From contig WOZJ01000062.1 of the NCBI GenBank assembly GCA_011620345.1, positions 1 through 13,170 of the forward strand: a DNA stretch of 13,170 bases, read 5' to 3'. This DNA is from Nitrospirota bacterium (GTDB taxonomy: Bacteria > UBA2233). Of the stretch, positions 1-13,170 are shown one piece after another. The position numbers were made by a program, and so were the translations under genes. Below the pieces are notes generated by a model. It did no database searches, was not told where the DNA came from, and saw only the letters and a program-made list of their open reading frames with translations. Numbering within the stretch: the first letter of the stretch is position 1; each line of letters begins with the position of its first letter.

Positions 1-1172
1 CTTGGGCCTGGCTCCAACGTGATCTTCCCCCCATGCTCCTCGATGATCCGGGCAGACAACGGAAGCCCGAGACCAATCCCTTTCTCTTTGGTCGTGTAAA
101 AAGGGATGAAGAGCTTTGGAATCTCCTTGGGGTCCACACCAGACCCCGTATCTTGGATATCCACCCGAAGGAACGCCTTCGACCAATGAACCCCGCAGGA
201 CACCTCTCCGCCGCCCTCGATCGCCTGGAGGGCGTTGAGGACGAGGTTCAAAAACACTTGCTTGAGCTTGTTGCCATCGACACGGAGCACTGCGGGCTCT
301 TTCCCGTAGTTCTTAACGAGCGTGACTCCGCGAGATTTCGCCTCGTACGCCGTAAGGATCAGCACCTCTTCGAGGATCTCTTTGATATCGTGAGGGGCCT
401 CGTGGAGGCCAGACGGCCTCGCGAAATCGAGAAACTGCTCGATAAGCAAGTTAATGCGCTTCACCTCGTTGTTGAGCACGGTGATGTCGTCCGTTACCTG
501 ACAAAATCGGCAAAACTCCGGCGCTTGGCGCTGGATGGCGTAAAGAAGCATGTTGATTACGTTTAAAGGGTTCCGGATCTCGTGCGCAAGCCCGGCAGAT
601 AGCTCGCCTAGGCTCACGAGCCGCTCTTTGTCGGCGATCTCCTTTTGGGCCTGAACCACCTGGCTATGCAACCTGGCGTTCTCGATAGCCATCGCGGAGT
701 GAAGCGCCGAGAGGTTGGCAAGCTCGAGCTCTTCTTGGCTAAGCGCCTTGGCAAACGACCAGTAGATGTTCATTACACCGATCACGACACCCTGTACGCT
801 CAAAGGAACGCTAAGCAGGCTCACGAGCCCCTCCTCTTGGAGAAGCGCCTTGTATACGAGCCTGTCCTCCCTGGAAATGTCCGGAATAAAGATGGGGGAG
901 TTGGTTTTTACGACCTCTCCCACGAGCGAGCCGGCTACCTCCAGGGGGGGTTTTTTTGTATACCCTTCCGAGCCCAAGTAGTGCGCTTTGATATAAAGGA
1001 TTTCTTCATCTTCGTCGAGGAGCAGGATTGACACAATCCTGGCATCCAGAAGGCTCGAAACGACCCGGGTGATGCCCTGGAGCGTATCCTCCAGGGATCC
1101 AGGGTTGGAATACATCGTAACGATCGCCCTGGATGCCTTGAGCAGCTTCGATTCTTCAACTCGTTCTAGCAT
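1..1172 (-). CDS. GAF-domain sensor histidine kinase (partial, runs off left edge)
   Basis: This is an open frame of about 390 residues from ATG at 1172 to the window edge, with no stop. Residues about 20-165 look like a GAF sensor domain ending in an AIENARL linker. They are followed by a HisKA dimerisation domain with the H-box LSAGLAHEIRNPLNVI (phosphorylated His about residue 197). A HATPase_c domain follows, with the N-box (LKQVFLNLVLNALQAIEGG), G1 (DTGSGVD) and G2 (GIGLGLP) all intact. No signal peptide or membrane segment is seen, so it should act in the cytosol and phosphorylate a response regulator, probably encoded beyond the left edge. Its ATG overlaps the end of the hesA-like gene by 7 bases, so it is translationally coupled to the nif operon. 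A role in nif control is inferred from position only. Odd points are a CRFC motif at residues 221-224 and an A7C7 run in the GAF coding region. Confidence 0.9.
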   Translation of the reverse strand, partial: MLERVEESKLLKASRAIVTMYSNPGSLEDTLQGITRVVSSLLDARIVSILLLDEDEEILYIKAHYLGSEGYTKKPPLEVAGSLVGEVVKTNSPIFIPDISREDRLVYKALLQEEGLVSLLSVPLSVQGVVIGVMNIYWSFAKALSQEELELANLSALHSAMAIENARLHSQVVQAQKEIADKERLVSLGELSAGLAHEIRNPLNVINMLLYAIQRQAPEFCRFCQVTDDITVLNNEVKRINLLIEQFLDFARPSGLHEAPHDIKEILEEVLILTAYEAKSRGVTLVKNYGKEPAVLRVDGNKLKQVFLNLVLNALQAIEGGGEVSCGVHWSKAFLRVDIQDTGSGVDPKEIPKLFIPFYTTKEKGIGLGLPLSARIIEEHGGKITLEPGP

Positions 1173-1891
1173 GCCTGGCAAACACACCCGGTTCTTTTTT
1201 TGAGCTTGATCTTCTTGACTTCCAAAGGCATCACCCGGATTAGCCCTAGCATGCCGTAGTACTCTTTTGCGCCCATCCCCAAGAAAGAGACGGCCACGAG
1301 CGCTCCCAAGCATCCCATGAGCCCTGCATGGGCCCCGAGCACGCCAAAGCGCGGGTCCCAGGATGGAAAGCTGGGAAACAGGCAAAAAAGACACGGCGTT
1401 CTTGGCGGGTCCAAAAGAACGACCTGCCCCTCGAAGGCGTACATGGCAAGCTCCAAAAGCGGGGTTTGCGTTCGCATGGCAAACCGTCCAAGCGCTTCTC
1501 TGTCCTTGAAATTATGGCGGCAATCGACGACGAGGTCCGGCTTGGGCTGCAAAGCGTCAAGATCGAGGTCTCGAACAAACCCAGAGAGCGCATGAACGCG
1601 CGTCGTTTTACTGAAACGCTGAATCGCTTCTTTGGCAAGCTCTGCCCTTGGCCGCCCGAGGCCGTCTTCGGGCATCAAGATCTGACGGTTCAAGTCTTCA
1701 AGGGTAAGGACCCCTTCGTGCACGAGAGTAAGCTCGCCCACGCCAGCCGCCGCCAGCTCGAGCGCAAGAGGCCCACCTAGCCCCCCCACGCCGGCCACAA
1801 GCACGCTTGAAGACGCAAGCCTTCTTTGAGCCTCGATGCCAAACCCGGGCAGTGCGATCTGCCTTGCAAACCGCCGGTAGGACTCCTCCAT
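1166..1891 (-). CDS. hesA: HesA/MoeB/ThiF-family E1-like protein in nif operon
   Basis: This 241-residue protein has the ThiF/MoeB/HesA fold: a Rossmann glycine loop GVGGLGG (residues 34-40), the DLNRQ motif (66-70), VVDCRHNF (121-128), and two cysteine pairs for structural zinc (C167/C170 in TPCLFCLFP; C236, C238 and C241 at the extreme C terminus). Family members normally adenylate the C-terminal Gly-Gly of a small sulfur-carrier protein. HesA genes occur in nif clusters of cyanobacteria, Frankia and Paenibacillus, probably serving metal-cluster or molybdenum cofactor supply. Compared with E. coli MoeB, the ATP/Mg residues Asp62, Lys86 and Asp130 align with Gly60, Arg82 and His126, while Arg73 is kept as Arg69, so normal adenylation is doubtful. 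It starts 7 bases after nifI2, with AGGGGA just upstream of the ATG. No small carrier protein gene is visible nearby. The family is clear; the exact function is not. Confidence 0.85.
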   Translation of the reverse strand: MEESYRRFARQIALPGFGIEAQRRLASSSVLVAGVGGLGGPLALELAAAGVGELTLVHEGVLTLEDLNRQILMPEDGLGRPRAELAKEAIQRFSKTTRVHALSGFVRDLDLDALQPKPDLVVDCRHNFKDREALGRFAMRTQTPLLELAMYAFEGQVVLLDPPRTPCLFCLFPSFPSWDPRFGVLGAHAGLMGCLGALVAVSFLGMGAKEYYGMLGLIRVMPLEVKKIKLKKRTGCVCQAC

Positions 1892-1898
1892 GGGTCCC

Positions 1899-2303
1899 CT
1901 AAGAGAGCAGCTCCTTTTCGCCCGTCCTTACTGCGTAGGTCTCTTCAAGGGGCAAAACGAACACCCGACCATCGCCCGCGTTACCGGTTTGATTGACTTC
2001 GAGGATCGCTTTGAGAGTATCTTCGATCTTTTCGTCTTCCACGACGATCTCGATGAGCCTTTTTGGGACAAACTGCAAGGGCCGGTGAATCTGGTGTTCG
2101 AGCGCGTACCTAGCGGGGGTCATGTTCAGCCTGCCAGGCCCCTCAATGGCTTCCATCTCCGGGTCGATCTCGCTCATCACCCCGCCCTGCTTACCCCTGC
2201 CGAGCACCGCATGCAGCGTCATGCCCGTCACGCCGACCCTCTCGAGCGCTTTTTTCGTCTCGGGGACAAGCGCCCTCCGGATGATGGCCACAACCTCTTT
2301 CAT
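1899..2303 (-). CDS. nifI2: NifI2, PII-like nitrogenase switch-off protein
   Basis: This 134-residue PII-superfamily protein begins MKEVVAIIRR. It has the GRGKQGGV segment that leads into the T-loop, a T-loop region rich in charged residues (about 45-80), and the B-loop TGNAGDGRVFV followed by TYAVRTGE near the C terminus. In methanogens NifI1 and NifI2 form a complex that binds dinitrogenase and inhibits it when 2-oxoglutarate is low. The same role is expected here, but has not been shown for this organism. It is longer than typical GlnB (112 residues), mainly through an enlarged T-loop, which fits NifI2 rather than GlnB or GlnK. The ATG overlaps the nifI1 stop by 4 bases, so the two should be made in step. 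The classical uridylylated tyrosine context of GlnB is not recognisable. Confidence 0.88.
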   Translation of the reverse strand: MKEVVAIIRRALVPETKKALERVGVTGMTLHAVLGRGKQGGVMSEIDPEMEAIEGPGRLNMTPARYALEHQIHRPLQFVPKRLIEIVVEDEKIEDTLKAILEVNQTGNAGDGRVFVLPLEETYAVRTGEKELLS

Positions 2304-2617
2304 AGCCCCCTTTCCCCCGTACGGATGGTGTAGGCATCGAGAACGTCCGTTACGAAGATCCGACCATCGCCGATATTTCCCGTCCGCGCGGCCTCCATGA
2401 CCGTCTCGACGACCTTTGGCACGTCCTCATCCTCTAGAACCATCAAGAGCATGACCTTGGGCAGCTCGTCGTAATGAACAGACCCGACGACAACCCCTTT
2501 TTGCTTACCCCTCCCGAACACGTGCATCTTGGTGAGCGAAGGATACCCTTCGGCCTCGAGTTTCAAAACCACCTCGTACTCTTTCTCGGGCCGGATAATC
2601 GCCCGGACCATCTTCAC
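2300..2617 (-). CDS. nifI1: NifI1, PII-like nitrogenase switch-off protein
   Basis: This 105-residue PII-like protein starts MKMVRAIIRP. It has the HVFGRGKQKGVVVG segment before a short T-loop and the B-loop RTGNIGDGRIFV followed by AYTIRTGERG. Its shortness and the GRGKQ motif match NifI1 (the GlnB-like protein 1 of nif clusters) better than GlnB or GlnK. With NifI2 it is expected to sense 2-oxoglutarate and ATP/ADP and block NifH docking on NifDK after ammonium addition. The start is GTG at 2617, five bases after AGGAGG; an internal ATG two codons later is less well spaced. It lies 16 bases after the second nifX-like gene. In archaea and many anaerobes the pair sits between nifH and nifD, so this location at the tail of the maturation genes is unusual. 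Confidence 0.88.
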   Translation of the reverse strand: MKMVRAIIRPEKEYEVVLKLEAEGYPSLTKMHVFGRGKQKGVVVGSVHYDELPKVMLLMVLEDEDVPKVVETVMEAARTGNIGDGRIFVTDVLDAYTIRTGERGL

Positions 2618-2633
2618 GGCACCCTCCTAACGT

Positions 2634-3110
2634 TTAGTGTATCTCCAGTTGCCTTTGCTTCGTCGACTTCGTGCGACGAGCGAGTTCCGATTTGGGAGCT
2701 AGGAGCTGCTTGAGCCAAGGAGGAGGGTCTTTTTCGATCGCCCGGACGAGCTTTTGCAAAAACCCCTCGACGGTCTCTCCTGCTTTAACCTTGACGGGGC
2801 TGATCCCGATCCGCACCAGCGCAACCGTGACCTCCGGCCCGATCTCGCCGGCTACGATCACGTCGGTCCCCTTAAGGGCCTCGAGCTTGTCCATAATCCC
2901 GCTCGAACCTGACGCCTTGAGATGGTGGAACGACAAGACGCTTTCGATCCACGCCCCTGCCCCGTCGAGCCTGTACACGACGAAACGCTTGGCCCTGCCG
3001 AAGTGCTCTGTCAGGTGAAGGAGGTCGTCGGATGCGAACGCAACCTTAATACCAAGCCCGTCCTCGGGCTGCCTGGAAGTCAAACGAATGCTCGAGAAGG
3101 GAGCTTCCAT
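2634..3110 (-). CDS. Second NifX-like FeMo-cofactor-binding domain protein
   Basis: I place the start at ATG 3110, which has AGGAGG nine bases upstream overlapping the fdxB stop; the longer frame back to 3245 would overlap most of the ferredoxin gene in another frame. The 158-residue product has a roughly 20-residue leader, then a NifX/NifB C-terminal-type domain (IKVAFASDD, EHFGRAKRFVVY, VIVAGEIGPEV) and a DPPPWLK motif that matches NPPPWIR in the upstream nifX. It ends in a basic tail, ELARRTKSTKQRQLEIH. Relatives (NifX, NifY, VnfX) bind NifB-co, VK-cluster or FeMo-co and pass them to NifEN or apo-NifDK. It may be a NifY-like or dedicated cofactor carrier. I leave the symbol blank because NifX, NifY and orphan family members cannot be told apart here. 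Confidence 0.82.
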   Translation of the reverse strand: MEAPFSSIRLTSRQPEDGLGIKVAFASDDLLHLTEHFGRAKRFVVYRLDGAGAWIESVLSFHHLKASGSSGIMDKLEALKGTDVIVAGEIGPEVTVALVRIGISPVKVKAGETVEGFLQKLVRAIEKDPPPWLKQLLAPKSELARRTKSTKQRQLEIH

Positions 3111-3119
3111 CGTATCCCC

Positions 3120-3125
3120 CCTCCT
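3120..3125 (-). promoter_or_regulatory. Ribosome binding site of second nifX-like gene (decides start)
   Basis: AGGAGG on the minus strand, nine bases before ATG 3110, overlaps the fdxB stop codon. It rules in the short form of the nifX-like gene and suggests coupling to fdxB. Confidence 0.75.
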
Positions 3126-3402
3126 ATGCCAGCATCCGTTCGGCATGGGAAAAGCACTTCTTTGGGCAGGCACGCTGGCAGGACTGGCATCCGATGCATT
3201 CGTCAGGGCGTGCCAGCCCCATGACCATCCGCCCATCTTCGTCATCTTCTAGCTCCTTGAGCATGAGAACATCGCACCCACATATCTTATAACATCTTCC
3301 GCATCCAAGACACTTGTCCGTATCGATCGCCTGCACGAATTTAGGGGTCCAGGGCCTGCCAGAGGCGTTGAATGAAACGAGCAACCCCGAAGCTTCAGCC
3401 AT
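3124..3402 (-). CDS. fdxB: nif-specific 2[4Fe-4S] ferredoxin (ferredoxin III, FdxB type)
   Basis: The start is ATG 3402, with AAGGAG six bases upstream; a TTG further up would lack such a site. The 92-residue product has two ferredoxin motifs: CLGCGRCYKIC (C31, C34, C37, C41) and CIGCQSCQRAC (C69, C72, C75, C79), each followed by a normal proline or variant context, giving two [4Fe-4S] clusters. The WTPKFVQAID segment before the first motif is typical of the nif-associated ferredoxin III family. It probably carries electrons to nitrogenase or to the NifB/NifEN assembly steps. Extra cysteines at C43 and C83 are not part of the standard ligand set. It lies 45 bases after nifT, the longest internal gap in the operon. 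Confidence 0.9.
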   Translation of the reverse strand: MAEASGLLVSFNASGRPWTPKFVQAIDTDKCLGCGRCYKICGCDVLMLKELEDDEDGRMVMGLARPDECIGCQSCQRACPKKCFSHAERMLA

Positions 3403-3408
3403 GACTCT

Positions 3409-3414
3409 CTCCTT
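3409..3414 (-). promoter_or_regulatory. fdxB ribosome binding site (decides start)
   Basis: AAGGAG on the minus strand lies six bases before ATG 3402 and selects it over an upstream TTG at 3438. Confidence 0.75.
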
Positions 3415-3447
3415 CATTTTAAGCTTATCGCTTGCCAAATAGGGCCT

Positions 3448-3648
3448 TTAAACCCGTCTCAACTCGAGCGTGACGGGAAGCTTGCCTTCGAGCGCCCCCG
3501 GCGGAACGAGCAGTCGAAAGCCGTTTGAAAGCGTGAGAACCTCCCCCAAATCCTCGAGCTTGCGCTCGAGAACCTCTTCTTCCAAGTCTTTCTTGGCGAT
3601 GTAGACGGTCAGCTTCCCGCTTGGAGTCCTACGAATCGTCGCCTTCAC
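3448..3648 (-). CDS. nifT: NifT/FixU small nif protein
   Basis: This 66-residue protein begins with a GTG at 3648, eight bases after AAGGAG. Features of the NifT/FixU family are the opening MIRR-like segment (ATIRRTPSGKLTVYIAKKDLEE), a central LTLSNGFRLLVPP matching the family's LxNGWxLYI stretch, and an ending LPVTLELRRV. The length fits the family (about 65-75 residues). NifT is found in many nif operons but its role is not established; mutants in several bacteria show little effect. It follows nifW by 18 bases. The family call is good; no function can be read from the sequence. Confidence 0.85.
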   Translation of the reverse strand: MKATIRRTPSGKLTVYIAKKDLEEEVLERKLEDLGEVLTLSNGFRLLVPPGALEGKLPVTLELRRV

Positions 3649-3666
3649 CCTGTTTTCTCCTTCAAT

Positions 3667-3966
3667 TCAAATCGATACGCCGCATTCGGCCTGGCACTCG
3701 ACACATGGGTTTGCGAGCCCTTTCTTCCGAACCTCTTCCCGGATGACCTCGCCGTAGGCTTTAAGGAGCGAGAGCCGAAGAAACTTGATAGCCTCTTCCT
3801 CGTTAGGCTTTGGCTCTCTGGCCTCGATTCGGGCCTTGTAGGCCCGAAAGCGCCGAAGCAGGGGCACCCTGAACGCCTCGATTACCCCTTGGTCGTAAGC
3901 GACCCCGAAAAACTCGAAAAATTCCTCGGCCCGCTCGAGCCTATAGAACGCCTCCATCGTCTTCAT
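3667..3966 (-). CDS. nifW: NifW-like nitrogenase-stabilising/protective protein with Cys-rich tail
   Basis: This 99-residue protein shows the NifW pattern: a short helix with LERAEEFFEFFGVAYD (residues 10-25), then VPLLRRFRAYKARI (34-47), then LSLLKAYGEVIREEV (65-79). NifW is reported to interact with nitrogenase and help protect NifDK from oxygen or aid its maturation. Known NifW proteins end shortly after this helix. Here the protein continues into GLANPCVECQAECGVSI, with cysteines 88, 91 and 95 (C-x2-C-x3-C), which could bind a metal or cluster or form disulfides. The ATG overlaps the stop of the DUF269 gene by 4 bases, so translation is coupled. NifW is assigned from pattern recall, and DUF683 was considered and does not fit. 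Confidence 0.8.
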   Translation of the reverse strand: MKTMEAFYRLERAEEFFEFFGVAYDQGVIEAFRVPLLRRFRAYKARIEAREPKPNEEEAIKFLRLSLLKAYGEVIREEVRKKGLANPCVECQAECGVSI

Positions 3967-4430
3967 GGGGTGCTAGCAACCTCTTTGAACCGGTCGAATA
4001 GCGCCTTGGCTTTGCAGGTCGCGTTGCGCGCGTCGCAAAGAAGCTTCTCCAACGAAGAAAACCCAAATGCCTGTGCATCCCTGAGGGTTTTATCGAGCAC
4101 GACGAGCCTGCCCGCATAGATCACGACTCTGCCAAACCCCTCGGAGGAAACCTCCAGAACCATCTGGAAAAACCCTCCTGTGTCGCGCTCTAAGGTAACG
4201 GCTATCGACCTGTAAAACGCCCGGATTTTTTCGAGTGTTGCGGAATCGAGAGGGGAGCAAGACGACCCATCCCCCTTCTTGGGCTTTATGAGTCCGCCGA
4301 GCAGCTCTTCATCGCTTTTGGCATCCAGCGTGCCGTAAAGATCGTTCGCCCTAAGCTGGCTGGCCAAATCCTTCAGGAACGTCCCCTCGAAAGAGCCCGT
4401 AGGCTGGCCAGAGGGCTCTTCTGCCCTCAT
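3963..4430 (-). CDS. NifX-associated nitrogen fixation protein (DUF269)
   Basis: This 155-residue protein matches the DUF269 NifX-associated family in length and in segments such as FLKDLASQLRANDLYG (19-34), KIRAFYRSIAV (about 88-98), GFGRVVIYAGRLVVLDKTLRDAQAFGF (about 117-143) and a final helix. The family is found almost only beside nifX in nif clusters; its biochemical role is not established. It overlaps nifX by 4 bases upstream and nifW by 4 bases downstream, which fits coupled expression with cofactor-assembly proteins. A DUF683 gene often follows this family but none is present here. Confidence 0.86.
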   Translation of the reverse strand: MRAEEPSGQPTGSFEGTFLKDLASQLRANDLYGTLDAKSDEELLGGLIKPKKGDGSSCSPLDSATLEKIRAFYRSIAVTLERDTGGFFQMVLEVSSEGFGRVVIYAGRLVVLDKTLRDAQAFGFSSLEKLLCDARNATCKAKALFDRFKEVASTP

Positions 4431-4804
4431 AGGGCCGCATCCCTTACGAGAATCTTGCGAATCCAGGGCGGCGGGTTCGTGCCCAGCATGGCAACGAGCC
4501 TTTTGAGGACATCTAAAATCTCGTCCGTTTCCTTGGCCTTGATCGGGTGGATTCGCTTGCCGACAAGCCTTGCCGCAGCGCTCGGGCCGATCTGTGCCAT
4601 GTACACGATCGCGCAGCCATCCAACGCCTCGATCTTTCCATTCAGCTTGTCTTCACTCTCGGGCCCGCCTTGTCCCTCGAGGAACGCAAGCTCGGATACG
4701 AACCGGTAGCCCTCAGGGTCCACTTCGTAGAAGAACATCCTTTTGGACCTTCCAAAATGGGCGTCGATATGGACGCCGTCCTCGCTGGCAAACGCTACCT
4801 TCAT
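4427..4804 (-). CDS. nifX: NifX, NifB-co/VK-cluster carrier
   Basis: This 125-residue single-domain protein begins MKVAFASEDGVHIDAHFGRSKRMFFYEV, the hallmark of the NifX/NifB C-terminal family, and ends with the NPPPWIRKIL motif common in NifX. NifX binds NifB-co and the VK-cluster (a FeMo-co precursor) and exchanges them with NifEN. It lies directly after nifN, the usual NifENX order, with the ATG overlapping the nifN stop by 4 bases. It is one of three NifX-type domains in the operon, alongside the C-terminal domain of NifB and the gene at 2634-3110. Confidence 0.93.
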   Translation of the reverse strand: MKVAFASEDGVHIDAHFGRSKRMFFYEVDPEGYRFVSELAFLEGQGGPESEDKLNGKIEALDGCAIVYMAQIGPSAAARLVGKRIHPIKAKETDEILDVLKRLVAMLGTNPPPWIRKILVRDAAL

Positions 4805-6165
4805 CCAACTTCCTCCAATCCAAAGTGGCTTACTCCGTGATGCTCTCTTTCTTCGAGTTTTTGCTCTTCCAACTCCAAAAGGACGTTTGCGATGTCGGCA
4901 AGGAGCCGTGCCGAGCCTTTGTATCCCACCTTCGAGCGCATCGCCCCTCCAACACGGTCAAATACGGGCATTCCCATCCGAAAGAGGGGAATATCCAGCC
5001 TTTTGGCAAGACGCGCCGCCCTTGCGCTGGCTACGAGCAAGTCTGAGCCCGCCGCCATCCGCTCCAAATCGCCCAGGTCTCCGATCGTGACCTCTTCGGC
5101 TTCGATTGCGCCAAGCGCAGGCCCGTTGGCCGGGGCGATGAGCGCTTGAAGCTCCATGCCGGCCTCTTTGGCAAGCTGGGCGACGGCCAAAAGTTCGTCT
5201 GGTTCGAGCGCGGCACTGAGCTTCTTTCCTCCCGTAAAGAAATGCGCATCGAGCATGGTATCCAAAAGCCGCTCCCTGTCGCGCTGGATCTTTTGGGGCA
5301 CCTTCCCGCCAGAAAGCTCGATTAGCGCGGATACAAACCTGTCCGTCGCTTGCAGCCCAGTTACCGAGTCAAAAACCCGGTAGGGAACGCCAAAGCCCTC
5401 TTGAAGCCTCCTTGCCGCCCCCTCGACGCTTTTCCCAAACGCGAGCGTCATACGGGCAAACGGCATCTTCCCCAACTCCTCGAGCCTGGTTCCGTCCATG
5501 ACGACGGGCCGAAACCCCCTGCCGGACAGCCTTCCGTCCATCCCAAGCGATAGATCGGGAAGGACGATAGGGGTCAGCCCGAAGGCTTGGATTAGTCCCT
5601 TGATCTCGTCCACGTCCCCCGGGGCGAACCCTGCGCTAGGTAAGACATTGAGGAGGTTTCCCCCGGAAATCGGCTTCAAGGCGCTATCTTCCGGGATCAG
5701 CCCGCTTACGAGGGCTTCCAGCATCAAGGCGAACCCGTCTTCAAGGCTTCCTTGAAAATCAGGCGCGTTTGCAAAGACCAGCGGCGTTTTGAACTCTGGA
5801 TGGTCACTCTTGAAGTTCTCGAGCATACCCCTTACGTCTTCCCCGCGCGTCTCTGAGAGCGCCGTGGCGATGACCCCGATCATGGAGGGGTGAAACTTTT
5901 GGGAGAGCTTAAGGAGCGCCCTTCGCAGGTTCTCCTCGCCCCCTAAGATAACGGGCATTTCGCTTAAAGCAGACGTTCCCATCGGGGCAGGTTCTCTGAA
6001 ATGGCGGGTAAAAAACACCTTGGCGAACGAAGCACACCCCTGGGCCCCGTGAAGAAGCGGCATCGCGCCCGCTACACCCAAAAGCGCCATGGCCGCACCA
6101 AGCGGCCTCGAGAGCTTCAAGGGGTCAACAGAGACGTCTTTTTTGATAGAAACCGCCCTGGCCAT
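4801..6165 (-). CDS. nifN: NifN, FeMo-cofactor scaffold subunit
   Basis: I set the start at ATG 6165, giving 454 residues; a longer frame to 6252 overlaps nifE and its extra residues are low-complexity and unlike NifN. GAGGTG lies seven bases before this ATG, and the gap to nifE is 4 bases. The N terminus has DPLKLSRPLGAAMALLG and LLHGAQGC with Cys44, the same number as the NifN ligand of the O-cluster in Azotobacter vinelandii NifEN. Then come FTRHFREPAP, SEMPVILGG and SETRGEDV, matching the nitrogenase component 1 beta-like fold. With NifE it forms the alpha2beta2 scaffold on which NifB-co is matured to FeMo-co with molybdenum and homocitrate. The position matching the third NifK cysteine is not a cysteine (IATALSETRGED), as expected for a subunit that gives only one ligand. 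Confidence 0.95.
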   Translation of the reverse strand: MARAVSIKKDVSVDPLKLSRPLGAAMALLGVAGAMPLLHGAQGCASFAKVFFTRHFREPAPMGTSALSEMPVILGGEENLRRALLKLSQKFHPSMIGVIATALSETRGEDVRGMLENFKSDHPEFKTPLVFANAPDFQGSLEDGFALMLEALVSGLIPEDSALKPISGGNLLNVLPSAGFAPGDVDEIKGLIQAFGLTPIVLPDLSLGMDGRLSGRGFRPVVMDGTRLEELGKMPFARMTLAFGKSVEGAARRLQEGFGVPYRVFDSVTGLQATDRFVSALIELSGGKVPQKIQRDRERLLDTMLDAHFFTGGKKLSAALEPDELLAVAQLAKEAGMELQALIAPANGPALGAIEAEEVTIGDLGDLERMAAGSDLLVASARAARLAKRLDIPLFRMGMPVFDRVGGAMRSKVGYKGSARLLADIANVLLELEEQKLEEREHHGVSHFGLEEVG

Positions 6166-6169
6166 CTTC

Positions 6170-7549
6170 TTACACCTCGGCCGCGAGCTCGCCCGGCACG
6201 GCGGCCTCCCACGGAGCGGGCTCCAAGACGAGCCGCCAAACAGGGTTGGCAAGCGCCCTGTCGACGTCTTTGGCTAGCCTGATAAGGCCCTTGTAGCCCG
6301 TGTAGCCGCGCATGCGCTCTTGGTTAATGTCTAAGAACGGAATCCTGGACTTGAGCGCGGCGTACTGGTTGCGGCCGCCAGCAATCAGCATGTCCGCCCC
6401 GCGCGTGCGGACAAGCTCTAAAAGCTCCTCTCCCGACGCTCGCGTAAGAAGAATGCCCTGATCGCCCAAAAGCTCTTTGGCCTTAGCAATGTCTTGCTCC
6501 GTGCTCTTTCTGGTGCTCGTGGCGATCACCTCCATGCCTAAATCTTTTAGGGCCGAGATGACCGACCAGCTCTTGACCCCTCCCGTGTAGAGCACGGCTC
6601 GCTTGCCTAATAGCCGTTTCCTGATAGGCTCGAGCGTTTGGAGGGTTTTCCTGGTCATGGCTTGGGTAAAAGCGCGCGTCTTTTCAATAAGCGCGGCATC
6701 TCCTAGACGCTCGACGATCCTTAAAAGCAGCCCGTTCGTTTCTTTGAGCCCAAAAAAAGACCCTTCCACGAACGGGATGCCGTAGCGCTCCTCAAGCCCG
6801 CCTGCCAAGTTGATCAGCGCGTTCGAGCAGATCAAAACGCTTAGCTTCGCCCTGTGGGCCGTGGCAACCTCTTCAAAGCGCCCGTCGCCCGTGATTTTGG
6901 AGAGCACCCGGATGCCCAACTCGGTGAAAACCGGCAGGATGTCCCAAAGCTCGCCCGAGACGTTGTACTCGCCGATGAGCGCGATGTCGAACGGGGTTGT
7001 TTCTTTGGGCTCCCTCGTTCCGATGACGTGCTTTAAGAGCGTATCGCCCGCCACGCGCGTGCCGAGCACCTTGGAGCCCACGAACCCAGGGGCCATCACG
7101 GGGATAACGGGCAGCCCTGTTTCTCGGGACGCCTTCTTGCACACGCTCTCGATGTCCTCGCCCGTAGATGCGGGCACGCAGGTAAGGTACACAAAAAGCG
7201 CCTTCGGGGAGTACCGCCCGGCAATTTCCAAGATCGCCCGAAAGAGCTTTTCCTCGCCCCCCATGACGATGTCGTTTTCGCTCAAATCTGTCGTGAAGGC
7301 CGTACGGTAAAGGCTGGGGCCCGAGCTTAGGCTGTTCCTCGAGCCCCAGGCGTTGCCCCAGCAGGCAATCGGCCCGTGCACGAGGTGCGCCGCGTCCGCG
7401 ATCGGGACGAGCGCGATCGTAGCGCCGTCGAAAGCGCACCCGCCCGAAGACGACCCGGGCTCGGGGGCCTTCCTGCATGCCGCCTTGTCTTTTTGCTTGT
7501 GCTCGCAGGAAGGCTCGTTGATCAGCTCTTTTGCCCTTGGCACGGCCAT
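6170..7549 (-). CDS. nifE: NifE, FeMo-cofactor scaffold subunit
   Basis: This 459-residue protein is very close to known NifE in length and sequence pattern. The O-cluster cysteines are C38 (SGGCAFDGA), C63 (HGPIACWGN) and C124 (VYLTCVPASTGEDI). N-terminal C15 and C25 lie in the typical NifE leader. Later landmarks are TTDLSENDIVMGG, APGFVGSKVLG, GEYNVSGELW, the LICSNALINLA cysteine, LYTGGVKSWSV and AGGRNQYAALKSRIPFLDINQER. With NifN it builds the FeMo-co scaffold complex in the cytosol. It begins 9 bases after nifK, with AGGAG six bases before the ATG. Confidence 0.97.
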   Translation of the reverse strand: MAVPRAKELINEPSCEHKQKDKAACRKAPEPGSSSGGCAFDGATIALVPIADAAHLVHGPIACWGNAWGSRNSLSSGPSLYRTAFTTDLSENDIVMGGEEKLFRAILEIAGRYSPKALFVYLTCVPASTGEDIESVCKKASRETGLPVIPVMAPGFVGSKVLGTRVAGDTLLKHVIGTREPKETTPFDIALIGEYNVSGELWDILPVFTELGIRVLSKITGDGRFEEVATAHRAKLSVLICSNALINLAGGLEERYGIPFVEGSFFGLKETNGLLLRIVERLGDAALIEKTRAFTQAMTRKTLQTLEPIRKRLLGKRAVLYTGGVKSWSVISALKDLGMEVIATSTRKSTEQDIAKAKELLGDQGILLTRASGEELLELVRTRGADMLIAGGRNQYAALKSRIPFLDINQERMRGYTGYKGLIRLAKDVDRALANPVWRLVLEPAPWEAAVPGELAAEV

Positions 7550-7558
7550 GGCTTACTC

Positions 7559-9109
7559 CTAGCGGATGAGGTCAAAAGAGATGTCGGTTTTGCCCGGCAC
7601 GTCCGTTTTCCTGTCGAGCTCGTCCAAAACCGTGTTCACGACCATCGTCAGGACGTTTAGCGCGCCCTGGTAGCCCAAGATCGGGTAGCGGTGCAGATGG
7701 TGCCTGTCGAAGATGGGGAACCCGATCCGTACCAGCGGCGTGCCCGTATCCCTTTGAAGGTACTTGCCGTGCGCGTTCCCGATGAAAAAGTCCACCGGCT
7801 CGGTAAACAGCAAAGAGCGCAAATGCCACAGGTCCTTGCCCGTGTAAACCTTTCCCGAAGCACCGAACGGGTTCGAAGAGAGCATCTCTTCGGCCTCTTT
7901 GGTAAACTCCTTGTCGCCGTTCGTGCACAAAAGGTGTGCGGGCTCGGCGCCAAGCTCCATCAAAAACGAGGTCAGCCCAAGGACCAAATCGGGGTCTCCG
8001 TAGATCGCAAAGCGCTTGCCGTGGATCCAAGCGCTGGAATCCGTCATCGCATCCAAGAGCCTCCCGCGCTCTTTTTCTAGCTCTTCGGGGATGGGCTTCC
8101 CTGTAATCTCCGAAATGGCCTCCATGAACGCGTCCGTACCCTTGACGCCAATCGGCCTGAGCGCGAGCGTCTTTTGCTGCGCCCAGTTTTGCGAGACCCA
8201 CTCGAGCGTCTTCAAGGTTGAATACCGCTGGAGGGCCAGCGTGGCCGATGCGTTTTGGGCGTCCAGCGCCTCCTCGAGCGGCGTACCCGCAGGGTAGAGA
8301 TGGTAATCGCCCGTGTTGGGCGAGTCCACGACGTCCGAGGTGTCGGCCAGAATGGTTGCCTCGATGCCGAAGGCCTTGAGCATCCGCTTGACTTCGCGGA
8401 TGTTGGCCGGGTAGGTGTCGAACCCTGGGATAATGTTGACCTTCCCGTTCGGGCTTCCTTTGGCGCGCGCCTCGGAAAGCGCCTGCAGAATCCCCTTGAG
8501 TATGTTGTCGTAGCCCGTTAAGTGCGAGCCCACGAAGCTCGGCGTATGGGCGAACGGAACGGGCAGGTCTTCGGGGATGGCACCCTGCTCTTTGGCATTC
8601 TTGATGAAGGCGTTTAAGTCGTCCCCGATCACCTCGGCCATGCAGGTCGTCGAGACGGCGATCATTTTGGGCTTGTAGAGCGCGTAGGCGTTCCCAAGCC
8701 CCTCGATCATGTTGCTCAACCCACCGAACACGGCCGCGTCCTCGGTCATCGAAGAAGAGACCGCGGCGATGGGCTCTTTGAAGTGCCTGGCAAAGTAGGT
8801 CCTGAAGTAGGCGACGCATCCCTGCGAGCCGTGGACGAACGGCAGCGTCCCTTCGAACCCCAGCGAGCACAAAACCGCACCCAGGGGCTGACAGGCCTTG
8901 GCCGGGTTGATGACGGCCGCCTCCCTGGCGAAGTTCTTTTCTTTGTACTCTTTGGTCTTCGTCCATTCGGAGACCTTAAGAACATCTTCTTCGCAGGGCA
9001 TCTCGCTTGCGGCCCGCTTGGCCTCAAAGCTTTTTTGGTAGCGCTCCTCTTGAAAGAGCTCTACGTGGTCCTTGATGCCCAAAGGCGCGTTGGTCTTGCC
9101 GGTGTCCAT
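7559..9109 (-). CDS. nifK: NifK, nitrogenase MoFe protein beta chain
   Basis: This 516-residue protein has the three P-cluster cysteines of the beta subunit: C73 (INPAKACQPLGA), C98 (HGSQGCVAYFR) and C156 (STTCMAEVIGDDL). An N-terminal extension of about 60 residues before these is usual for group I NifK. Other landmarks are ARHFKEPIAAVSSSMTED, TPSFVGSHLTGYDN, SSAWIHGKRFAIYGDPD and RIGFPIFDRHHLHRYP. With NifD it forms the alpha2beta2 dinitrogenase that reduces N2 to ammonia. The gap to nifD is only 3 bases, and GGAGGAGGG inside the nifD 3-prime end serves as its ribosome site, so the two subunits are coupled for equal output. Confidence 0.98.
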   Translation of the reverse strand: MDTGKTNAPLGIKDHVELFQEERYQKSFEAKRAASEMPCEEDVLKVSEWTKTKEYKEKNFAREAAVINPAKACQPLGAVLCSLGFEGTLPFVHGSQGCVAYFRTYFARHFKEPIAAVSSSMTEDAAVFGGLSNMIEGLGNAYALYKPKMIAVSTTCMAEVIGDDLNAFIKNAKEQGAIPEDLPVPFAHTPSFVGSHLTGYDNILKGILQALSEARAKGSPNGKVNIIPGFDTYPANIREVKRMLKAFGIEATILADTSDVVDSPNTGDYHLYPAGTPLEEALDAQNASATLALQRYSTLKTLEWVSQNWAQQKTLALRPIGVKGTDAFMEAISEITGKPIPEELEKERGRLLDAMTDSSAWIHGKRFAIYGDPDLVLGLTSFLMELGAEPAHLLCTNGDKEFTKEAEEMLSSNPFGASGKVYTGKDLWHLRSLLFTEPVDFFIGNAHGKYLQRDTGTPLVRIGFPIFDRHHLHRYPILGYQGALNVLTMVVNTVLDELDRKTDVPGKTDISFDLIR

Positions 9110-9112
9110 GCC

Positions 9113-10576
9113 TTAAGCCCTCCTCCATGGCGCCTGAATAAGACTCCAGGCGGGGTTATTGATTGCCATATCCATGTCGCGGGCGAACACCTTGAACCCG
9201 TCGTAGCCGTGGTAAGGGCCCGAGTAGTCCCAGGAGTGCATCTGCCGAAAGGGGATTCCCATCTTTTGGAATAAGTACTTCTCCTTGATCCCCGAGGCGA
9301 CCAAATCCGGCTTGAGCGCCTTGACGAGCGCTTCCATCTCGTAGGCCGTCACGTCGTCGTAAACGACCGTCCCTTCTTTGATGTGCTCCGTGGTCCTTTG
9401 GTAGTCGTCCTTATGGCCGAACTCGTAGCCCGTGCCCATCACCTCCATCCCCAAATCCTCGAAGGCGGGGATTGTGTGCCTTGGCCTAAGCCCGCCCACG
9501 TACAAAAGCACCCGCTTGTCCTTAAGCCTCGGCTTGTAGCGCTCGGTTATCGCGCCCATCTCGGGCTCGTAGCGCGCGATGAGCTTCTCGGCATTCTCCT
9601 GGATCGTTTCGTCAAAGTGCGAGGCGATCATCCTTAGCGACTTGGCGATCATCGTGGGCCCAAAGAAGTTGAACTCTATCCAGGGCACGCCGTAGGTCTC
9701 TTCGACAAAGCGGGTGATGTAGTTGATCGAGCGGTAGCAGTGGATGAGGTTGAGCTTAGAAAACGCCATTAGGGCAAGCTCTTTGAGCGTCGCGTCGCCC
9801 GTCCAGACGCTTACGACCCTGAGCCCCATCTCTTCTAATAGAATCCTCGAGGCCCATGCGTCCCCGCCGATGTTGTAATCGCCTACGATGGCGACGTCGT
9901 AGGGGCCGGGCTCGAAGCCCAAGTCTTTCTTGAACTGCTCGGCCTTGGGCATGATCCAGTCGCGGATCGAGTCGTTGGCGATGTGGTGGCCGAGCGATTG
10001 CGAAACGCCCCTGAAGCCTTCGCAGCGGACCGGCGTGACAGGCTTGCCCAGCTCGTTGCCCATCTTTCTAGACACCGCCTCGATGTCGTCGCCGATCAAC
10101 CCGACCGGGCACTCGGATTGCACCGTAAACCCCTCGGCCAAAGGGAACAGTTCGCTTAGCTCCTTCAAGAGCGTTTCAAGCCGCTTGTCCCCCCCGAAGA
10201 CGATGTCACGCTCCTGGAAGTCCGAGGTGAAATTGAGCGTTCCGAAGGTGTCCACGCCGGTCACGCCGACGTAATAGTTGCGCCTGCCTGACCATGAGTA
10301 CACCCCACACCCCACTGGGCCGTGCGAAAGGTGAATCGCGTTCTTGACGGGCCCCCAGACGACGCCCTTCGAGCCCGCGTAGGCGCAGCCCCTGGCCGTC
10401 ATGACGCCGGGCACGCTCTTGATGTTCGATTTGACGCCGCAGTCTTGGCTGCCCTCTTGGAACACGCCTAAGTGCTTTTGGCGCTTCTTCTTGGATTTAT
10501 CCGGATACGCCTCTAGGATCTCCTCGACGAGCGCCTTGCGCTCCTTGAGAACCCCCGCCTTATCGTGCGCTCCCAT
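9113..10576 (-). CDS. nifD: NifD, nitrogenase MoFe protein alpha chain
   Basis: I choose ATG 10576, giving 487 residues, because AGGAGG lies eight bases upstream. A TTG 30 bases further up would put that site inside the coding region. P-cluster ligands are C64 (ARGCAYAG), C90 ([10 protein letters not shown]) and C156 ([11 protein letters not shown]), two more than the Azotobacter numbers 62, 88 and 154. FeMo-co ligands are the cysteine in [11 protein letters not shown] and the histidine in [17 protein letters not shown]. The [15 protein letters not shown] segment and length point to a group I-like molybdenum enzyme; there is no sign of the VnfD or AnfD pattern, and a separate delta subunit is absent. 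It is the catalytic subunit holding the active-site cofactor. Confidence 0.98.
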
Positions 10577-10584
10577 ATAACATG

Positions 10585-10590
10585 CCTCCT
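10585..10590 (-). promoter_or_regulatory. nifD ribosome binding site (decides start)
   Basis: AGGAGG on the minus strand lies eight bases before ATG 10576. It supports that start over a TTG 30 bases upstream. Confidence 0.8.
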
Positions 10591-10612
10591 GTTGTTGTGT
10601 GGACAAAAAAGC

Positions 10613-11521
<909 letters not shown>

Positions 11522-12946
11522 TTACGAAACGGCCCGGTTGGCTTGCTCTTCAAGCGCCGGGATGCTGATTTTCTCCTTTGCCCAGGCCATGAAGGCCTCT
11601 TCAATCGGGCCAATTTGACGCACGACTTCGATGCCGGCCTCCAAGAGCGCTTGCTCGGGGGCGGGCCCGATCGCCATCACAAAGAGCGCCTGAACGCCCT
11701 CGAGCGCTTTGAGGGTTCGGCTCATTTTCGTTTGGGCGCCTTCTTCTTCTTGACAGTCCGAACCCGTGGCGCAGTAAAGCTCGACCTTTCGCGCACCCAA
11801 TAGCTTGAGCGAACCGTCTTCTTGAACTTCGTACACCAAGAACTCCTTGGCATGGCCGAAGTGCTCGTTGACAAGCCCCATCCCCTTGGTGGCGACGGCA
11901 ATCTTGGTACCTGAAAGCGCTTTCCCCACCCGGTAGGCCTCGTAGCTTTTGATAATCTGCTCGCGTTTCATCCGGTCGGTTTCGATGCGCTGCTCTAAAT
12001 GGGCATGCATCCGCTCGATCACGCCCACGTCAAAACTCTGCTCGATTGTCTCTTCTTCAAGGCAGGTGCCTTTTTCCTGCGAGGTGTCCTTGCAGAGCAA
12101 ACCGGACGCATCCGCCCTGCAAAGCCTGCAGTGGCGCATGAGGTTGACGTTGGCCTCGATCTTGCTTTGGAGCGCCTCGATGGCTTGAGGGCTTGGCGAA
12201 ACGACCCCCATCTTGGAAAAGGCGCTCCCGTAGCCGGGCGAGATCGCAACCGGCATGAGGTTCACAAGGAACGCGCCTAAGTTTTTGAGCTCCTTGGCGA
12301 GCTTTGGGACGTGCGCGTCGTTGACGCCCGGAATGACGACCGTGTTGACCTTGACGAGCACGTTTTCTTTGGCCAGCAGCCTCAAGCCCTCGAGCTGGTT
12401 CTCGATGAGCACTGCCGCCGCATCCTTGCCCGTAAGGCGCTTGTGGCCGTGGAACGCCCAGGCGTAGATTTCTTTGCCAATGTCGGGGTCGAGCGCGTTG
12501 ATCGTGACCGTCACATGGTCGATGCCCAATTCGAGAATCTCGGGAAGAAACTCTTTGAGCCGAAGCCCGTTGGTCGAGAGGCAAAGCTTGAGCATTGGGA
12601 TTGCCTCTTTAATGAGCCTTAATGTCCCAAAGGTTTTTTCTGGGTTGGCCAAAGGATCTCCAGGCCCTGCAATGCCGACGACCGAGAGCTGCGGAAGGCG
12701 CATGGCCACGGACATCACTTTTTTGAGCCCGGCTTCGGGGCTTAACAGCGTGCTTGAAACGCCCGGCCTCGATTCGTTCGCGCAGTCGAATTTACGGTTG
12801 CAGTAGTTGCACTGGATGTTGCAGGCTGGCGCCACCGGCAAGTGAACCCTTGCGAAGTAGTGCTGAGCCTCGGGGCTGTAGCAAGGGTGGCTTTCCACCC
12901 GCTTATCGATTGGGGTCTTCTTGTATTGGCGGAGGCTCGTGGCCAT
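11522..12946 (-). CDS. nifB: NifB, radical SAM FeMo-co precursor synthase with NifX domain
   Basis: This 474-residue protein has the radical SAM motif C42-x3-C46-x2-C49 in PVAPACNIQCNYCNRKFDC, which holds the SAM-binding [4Fe-4S] cluster. It also has GIAGPGDPLANPEKTF, LCLSTNGL, TVTINALDP and MRHCRLCRADASGLL (C273, C276), all typical of NifB. From about residue 350 a NifX-like domain follows (KIAVATKGMGLVNEHFGHAKEFLVYEV), so this is the two-domain form. NifB joins two [4Fe-4S] units with a carbide from SAM to form NifB-co. The start is ATG 12946 with GGGAG nine bases upstream. It is the first gene after the sigma-54 promoter and is followed 27 bases later by nifH. An additional Cys285 follows the second cysteine pair. 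Confidence 0.97.
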   Translation of the reverse strand: MATSLRQYKKTPIDKRVESHPCYSPEAQHYFARVHLPVAPACNIQCNYCNRKFDCANESRPGVSSTLLSPEAGLKKVMSVAMRLPQLSVVGIAGPGDPLANPEKTFGTLRLIKEAIPMLKLCLSTNGLRLKEFLPEILELGIDHVTVTINALDPDIGKEIYAWAFHGHKRLTGKDAAAVLIENQLEGLRLLAKENVLVKVNTVVIPGVNDAHVPKLAKELKNLGAFLVNLMPVAISPGYGSAFSKMGVVSPSPQAIEALQSKIEANVNLMRHCRLCRADASGLLCKDTSQEKGTCLEEETIEQSFDVGVIERMHAHLEQRIETDRMKREQIIKSYEAYRVGKALSGTKIAVATKGMGLVNEHFGHAKEFLVYEVQEDGSLKLLGARKVELYCATGSDCQEEEGAQTKMSRTLKALEGVQALFVMAIGPAPEQALLEAGIEVVRQIGPIEEAFMAWAKEKISIPALEEQANRAVS

Positions 12947-12990
12947 CTTGACGCGCTCCCTGGTTTCTTCGTCTTGCTCTTAGTAATACA

Positions 12991-13006
12991 AGCAAAGGCC
13001 ATGCCA
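12991..13006 (-). promoter_or_regulatory. Sigma-54 (-24/-12) promoter of the nif operon
   Basis: Read on the minus strand the site is TGGCATGGCCTTTGCT. It fits the sigma-54 consensus TGGCAC-G-N4-TTGCW at all but one position (C to T), with the invariant GG and GC dinucleotides correctly spaced. The GC at 12993-12992 places transcription start near 12980, about 34 bases before the nifB ATG. This is the only convincing promoter in the window. Confidence 0.85.
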
Positions 13007-13022
13007 TCTTGCACCTCTTTCG

Positions 13023-13035
13023 ATAACGCTTGATA
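13023..13035 (-). promoter_or_regulatory. Possible IHF-like bending site
   Basis: The minus strand reads TATCAAGCGTTAT, which has the WATCAA core of the IHF consensus but a poor match in the TTR half. It sits between the promoter and the upstream palindromes, at about -43 to -55, where IHF often binds at nif promoters. The match is weak and could be chance. Confidence 0.25.
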
Positions 13036-13092
13036 CAAGGCACTTTACGGGATGTTGTACGACCACGGCCCACGACTAAGGCCGCTCCCTCG

Positions 13093-13108
13093 TGGTGATA
13101 AAACACCA
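13093..13108. promoter_or_regulatory. Palindrome TGGTG-N6-CACCA, copy 1 (candidate activator site)
   Basis: The sequence TGGTGATAAAACACCA is a perfect five-base-arm palindrome with an AT-rich centre, centred about 120 bases upstream of the predicted start. It has the same arms and spacer length as a second copy 30 bases away. It could be the binding site of a dimeric regulator; which one is unknown. Confidence 0.6.
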
Positions 13109-13122
13109 ACAAGGGTTTTTTA

Positions 13123-13138
13123 TGGTGCCTCAGCACCA
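13123..13138. promoter_or_regulatory. Palindrome TGGTG-N6-CACCA, copy 2 (candidate activator site)
   Basis: The sequence TGGTGCCTCAGCACCA has the same arms as copy 1 and a different spacer that extends the dyad to six base pairs. It is centred about 150 bases upstream of the predicted start. A run of six T lies before it on the plus strand and no T-run follows it on the minus strand, so a nif-strand terminator is unlikely. Confidence 0.6.
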
Positions 13139-13170
13139 AACGGGGCTGTTGGGAATATAAAAGCCCGGGG

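Follow-up and report, generated by a model that had tools for sequence, protein, structure and literature searches.

The window, that is the whole stretch of DNA analysed, comprises all 13,170 bases of its contig, the right flank of which is readable in the sister species (G001) only. Its minus strand carries a nif operon with the order nifB, nifH, nifD, nifK, nifE, nifN, an X-like gene, a DUF269 gene, nifW, nifT, a ferredoxin gene, a second NifX-like gene, two P-II family genes, a ThiF/HesA-type gene and a GAF kinase gene (Table 1). The gaps along the operon are shorter than 30 bp, and those between nifD, nifK, nifE and nifN shorter than 15 bp; the names of these four genes and of the first X-like gene come from order and sequence alone. 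The P-II models match both P-II family genes below the cut-off, and their probable NifI names come from the pairing and the nif context. The two genes are located behind the second NifX-like gene rather than between nifH and nifD.

The operon is preceded by TGGCATGGCCTTTGCT, which is a good sigma-54 element driving nifBHDKENX and the genes behind them; it lies 44 bp upstream of the start codon of nifB and has the GC of its -12 element at 12993-12992. No convincing IHF site was seen upon inspection by eye.

Table 1 Features of the nif locus and its upstream region, in window coordinates
Feature	Position	Strand	Remarks
Site B, distal palindrome TGGTGCCTCAGCACCA	13123..13138		centre at about -150; identical in G001:C17:3137-3152
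Inner half-site pair CACCA-N14-TGGTG	13104..13127		read from the sequence; putative significance
Site A, proximal palindrome TGGTGATAAAACACCA	13093..13108		centre at about -120; identical in sister species, G001:C17:3107-3122
Sigma-54 -24/-12 promoter TGGCATGGCCTTTGCT	12991..13006	minus	predicted start near 12980; identical in sister species
nifB	11522..12946	minus	radical SAM and NifX-like domain; first operon gene
nifH	10613..11494	minus	TIGR01287 above cut-off
nifD, nifK, nifE, nifN (ORF)	4801..10606 (9113-10606, 7559-9109, 6170-7549, 4801-6252)	minus
NifX-like gene	4427-4804	minus	named from sequence
DUF269 NifX-associated gene, nifW, nifT, 2x4Fe-4S ferredoxin, second Nitro_FeMo-Co (NifX-like) gene	within 2634..4804	minus
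Two P-II family genes, probably nifI1 and nifI2	1899..2617 (2300-2617, 1899-2303)	minus
ThiF/HesA-type adenylyltransferase	1166..1891	minus
GAF sensor histidine kinase	3..1394	minus	cut by contig end; start codon probably near 1180

The paired palindromes upstream of nifB

The motif TGGTG-N6-CACCA occurs here in two exact copies, and the centres given for them in the initial annotation, 13100.5 and 13130.5, were confirmed. The distance between them is 30 bp, or 2.86 turns at 10.5 bp per turn, which is close to an integral helical spacing. Since the position of TGGCATGGCCTTTGCT puts the transcription start near 12980, the centres lie at about -120 and -150, also as had been proposed, within the range of about 80-200 bp upstream typical of paired sigma-54 enhancer dyads and with the -24/-12 promoter downstream of them. 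The arms of site B extend on the minus strand to TGGTGC-N4-GCACCA. The arms of the two palindromes are identical while their spacers (ATAAAA and CCTCAG) agree at one base out of six, a pattern of protein-binding sites and not of a duplicated segment.

The region 12947-13170 was subjected to 20,000 dinucleotide shuffles; three of the products contained two inverted repeats, of whatever sequence, that agreed in their 5-bp arms and had an equal spacer of 3-12 bases, and only one contained such a pair within 60 bp, so that the probability of the palindrome pair arising by chance is about 1e-4. A scan of 1,122 overlapping 224-bp stretches from this genome (G000) and the sister genome recovered the palindromes in the latter and, besides runs of N, one other pair, which is located in a repetitive coding stretch.

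The exact motif is not scattered across the genome, these being its only two places in 1,795,685 bases. With up to one mismatch allowed, 23 sites were found in G000 and 28 in G001, and the reversed-pattern controls gave higher counts, 33 and 32, respectively. Such one-mismatch sites were considered as further operator copies and rejected: those examined sit within long open frames, and the recurrent TGGTGCTTGCTCACC-like sites turned out to be coding. No other nitrogen gene was found to have a copy of the operator, and the other sigma-54-like promoters read in G000 have different inverted repeats or none, never TGGTG-N6-CACCA. Three sigma-54-like promoters are located within 1.6 kb in G000:C68:13500-18500, one of which, C68:16737(-), is accompanied at about -140 by a palindrome of its own, TGAATCA-ttt-TGATTCA, and has a glycosyltransferase-like gene downstream.

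Among 386 genomes the exact paired motif is present only in the two belonging to this genus, the other 384 sampled being without it, and a search of the same set with two mismatches and fixed spacing yielded no more extra matches than the reversed-pattern control, i.e. the level of chance. The palindromes are conserved in the one relative available, where the region is about 97% identical and neither dyad contains a single difference, although with only two genomes of such identity the unchanged dyads are weak evidence. A comparison of nifB upstream regions, suggested in the initial annotation, revealed the motif in the sister species and in none of 80 other such regions (0/80). A literature search for the string TGGTG-N6-CACCA returned nothing.

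Search for the activator: NifA and the operon-end regulator

Neither of the two features of a NifA-controlled nif promoter, the box and the equivalog, is found here. The earlier statement that TGT-N10-ACA does not occur from 13007 to 13170 was upheld, and no exact copy is present even in the whole region 12947-13170. The sister species speaks against a true NifA enhancer just past position 13170, as no TGT-N10-ACA was found there in the 1.36 kb from nifB upwards, a region reaching about 1.2 kb beyond the position of the contig end. As a control, the box was detected in 62 of the 80 other nifB upstream regions, compared to 12.5% of random stretches, and 54 of the 80 carry it together with a sigma-54 site. 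At the protein level, the search of the genome, which is 96.8% complete and has the enhancer-binding protein (EBP) of contig C16 cut at a contig end, recovered no NifA equivalog (TIGR01817, cut-off 528.85 bits), the best EBP having scored 393.8. Besides weak matches, this search yielded one EBP that lacks a GAFTGA-type loop and six that have it; five of these six are response regulators encoded beside kinases.

The sister species, whose NifB is 96% identical to that of the window, has the same kinase at the end of the operon, directly followed by an NtrC-type response regulator of 463 aa with its start overlapping the kinase stop (G001:C22:80197-81585). In the region aligned to the kinase there, G001:C22:81648-83036, one TAA is found, probably upstream of the true start codon. 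The regulator gene of this genome (G000:C62:6-1397) opens contig C62 at base 6, and by synteny contig C62 and the contig of the window (C14) are therefore neighbours.

This regulator, hereafter the operon EBP, consists of a receiver domain (PF00072), a Sigma54_activat domain (PF00158) and an HTH_8 domain (Fis HTH, PF02954), which is the domain composition of NtrC. Its scores of 457 bits against the NtrC equivalog (cut-off 558.6) and 366 bits against NifA (cut-off 528.85) make it an NtrC-like protein which is an equivalog of neither; the score of the GAF kinase is far below the NtrB cut-off. The recognition segment, GNQVKAAQLLGITRNVLRHRI, is of the NtrC type, while the NifAs of the control nif loci have GWVQAKAARLLGLTPRQIGYAL and close variants. 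The sigma-54 contact loop reads DAFTGA instead of GAFTGA, with FTGA intact; DAFTGA occurs seven times among the EBPs of the fetched loci, counting several overlapping copies of the operon EBP and its sister. Apart from the latter, the best match of the operon EBP shows 49% identity among 290 genomes, and the matches on plasmids are below 60%.

Candidate binders of the palindromes

In a rival explanation to binding by the operon EBP, a NifA-like protein lacking the GAFTGA loop (G000:C34:7161-8726, with a counterpart on G001:C36) might occupy the dyads as a repressor or anti-activator, perhaps in competition with the operon EBP, the sites being NifA-type boxes altered from TGT-N10-ACA to TGG-N10-CCA. 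It combines a NifA-like Fis HTH with a sigma-54 AAA domain. Its DNA-binding domain (RWVLSKAARELGITRRQLEYRV, compared to GWVQAKAARLLGLTPRQIGYAL in NifA) resembles that of NifA, its matches among solved structures include the NifA chain 9qq6, aligned through the HTH, and the dyads have kept the outermost bases of the NifA box, TG-N12-CA. The loop is missing in both species (LFGSEGDPLRYGKLELA), so activation at sigma-54 promoters is not expected of this protein, which would leave it the role of a repressor or anti-activator. However, its gene is unlinked to nif, its neighbours being acyl-CoA dehydrogenase-like, methyltransferase-like and other unrelated genes, the third position of the dyad half-site differs from NifA, and binding by this protein would leave the activator of the sigma-54 promoter unnamed. 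We consider this explanation unlikely, and quite unlikely its wider form, according to which NifA has been displaced in this lineage by the nif-encoded pair of GAF kinase and NtrC-type regulator acting on rearranged NtrC half-sites while the loop-less NifA-like protein competes as an anti-activator.

The CRP site, TGTGA-N6-TCACA, has the same 16-bp TG-N12-CA frame and the same geometry of two 5-bp arms separated by six bases, and each genome encodes one HTH_Crp_2 protein. It is nevertheless very unlikely that the dyads are a CRP/FNR-family operator, given that this single protein is encoded away from nif, that no other intergenic region was seen to carry the motif, and that tandem sites at -120 and -150 of a sigma-54 promoter suit an enhancer better. 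Hairpins in RNA or DNA, belonging to a terminator or leader structure, seem just as improbable: the minus strand does fold well as RNA (-28.7 kcal/mol, z -3.0), but such a fold necessarily follows from two equal palindromes, the palindrome region is located upstream of the predicted start, the terminator scan was negative with no T-tract, and in the sister species no minus-strand gene was seen entering the region from the right.

The least probable of these explanations is a repressor operator belonging to, or shared with, a divergent gene, an option raised in the initial annotation. To the right of the palindromes the sister species has interspersed repeats followed by hicBA and a mazEF-like pair, both divergent, and this toxin-antitoxin region adjoins nif at G001:C17:3430-4645. 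Yet hicB starts about 285 bp away, past the repeats, and no match to either hicBA or mazEF exists in G000, where the flank of the sister species finds only repeats, one 44-base piece at the query end and the last 25 bases of the window's contig. As hicBA is absent from G000 and the dyads are present in both species, the data do not support sharing of the operator with a conserved divergent gene. The repeats themselves (G001:C17:3179-3950) have the forms CCGGGCCTTTCCAGGC.CACCCCATTGATAG and GCGGGACGTG.TTGTCCCGCC; the repeat query matches 39 places in G001, counting its own location, and 11 places in G000, and the contig of the window ends where the repeats begin.

A predicted NtrC-family enhancer of the nif operon

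The interpretation we prefer, with a probability of roughly 0.6, is that the palindromes form a lineage-private, autogenous and pathway-specific enhancer of the NtrC family used in place of NifA. The earlier view that the dyads are a paired operator, placed at enhancer distance and serving a predicted non-NifA sigma-54 activator, gains support from the missing NifA box and equivalog and from the NtrC-type EBP at the operon end. The best candidate for the binder is the operon EBP, as suggested by its linkage, the likeness of the half-sites and the lack of a better candidate. The two palindromes would then be the upstream activator sequence of the nif operon: the GAF histidine kinase would phosphorylate the NtrC-family regulator encoded by the last operon gene, dimers of which would assemble on the four CACCA/TGGTG half-sites and loop to the sigma-54 polymerase at 13006-12991, thereby switching on nifBHDKENX and the genes behind. 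Since these include the kinase and regulator genes, the circuit would be one of positive autoregulation. Binding by the EBP, the assignment of half-sites to dimers, the signal and the positive autoregulation are inferred parts of this model.

The palindromes are most likely a variant on NtrC-type enhancers, with familiar half-sites in an unfamiliar order. The E. coli NtrC box is TGCACCAnnnTGGTGCA (PMC8743547; see also PMC4987338), and all four arms equal the core of its half-site, CACCA/TGGTG, in swapped order, so the initial remark on reversed NtrC half-sites was correct. As in the glnA-type enhancers of E. coli and Salmonella, two tandem sites with this core are located upstream of a sigma-54 promoter, and the candidate activator is a receiver-AAA-Fis protein of the NtrC family. 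In contrast to them, the order is TGGTG-N6-CACCA and not CACCA-N3-TGGTG, the target is the nif operon itself, the regulator is nif-linked and scores 457 against the required 558.6 bits, and its partner kinase possesses a GAF domain and is far below the NtrB cut-off. The opposite half-site order means that an NtrC dimer of standard geometry would not sit normally on either palindrome; the NtrC order is found in the inner pair CACCA-N14-TGGTG, whose arms are 11 bp, or roughly one helical turn, further apart than those of the NtrC box. The likeness to the NifA upstream activator sequence TGT-N10-ACA lies in the 16-bp TG-N12-CA frame, the same distance from a sigma-54 nif promoter and a putatively equal role, whereas the third half-site base is G/C and not T/A, and both the exact box and a NifA equivalog are missing.

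In Geobacter sulfurreducens, as reportedly described by Ueki and Lovley in 2010, nif is under the Gnf two-component systems. Their regulators are said not to be the last nif operon genes, and an RNA-binding antiterminator, GnfR, reportedly takes part. The locus described here resembles that system in having nif under a predicted two-component system instead of NifA, a likeness on the level of the regulatory scheme, and differs from it in that the candidate regulator is encoded by the last gene of the nif operon. The genes gnfK and gnfR are named in PMC7962754. According to a study on Desulfovibrio (PMC4641369), the sigma-54 EBPs of these bacteria are pathway-specific and often co-located with a single target, as the candidate regulator here appears to be, and nearly half of the reconstructed EBP motifs resemble no other; TGGTG-N6-CACCA is not printed in the text of that study, the motif logos being figures.

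Little is known of how nitrogen fixation is controlled outside Proteobacteria, and the nif operon described here appears to include a two-component system of the NtrC type and to be served by a private enhancer instead of NifA. With the half-sites of the classical NtrC box in swapped order, the locus would be well suited for asking, in a clean experiment, how dimers of the Fis type recognise the order and spacing of half-sites.
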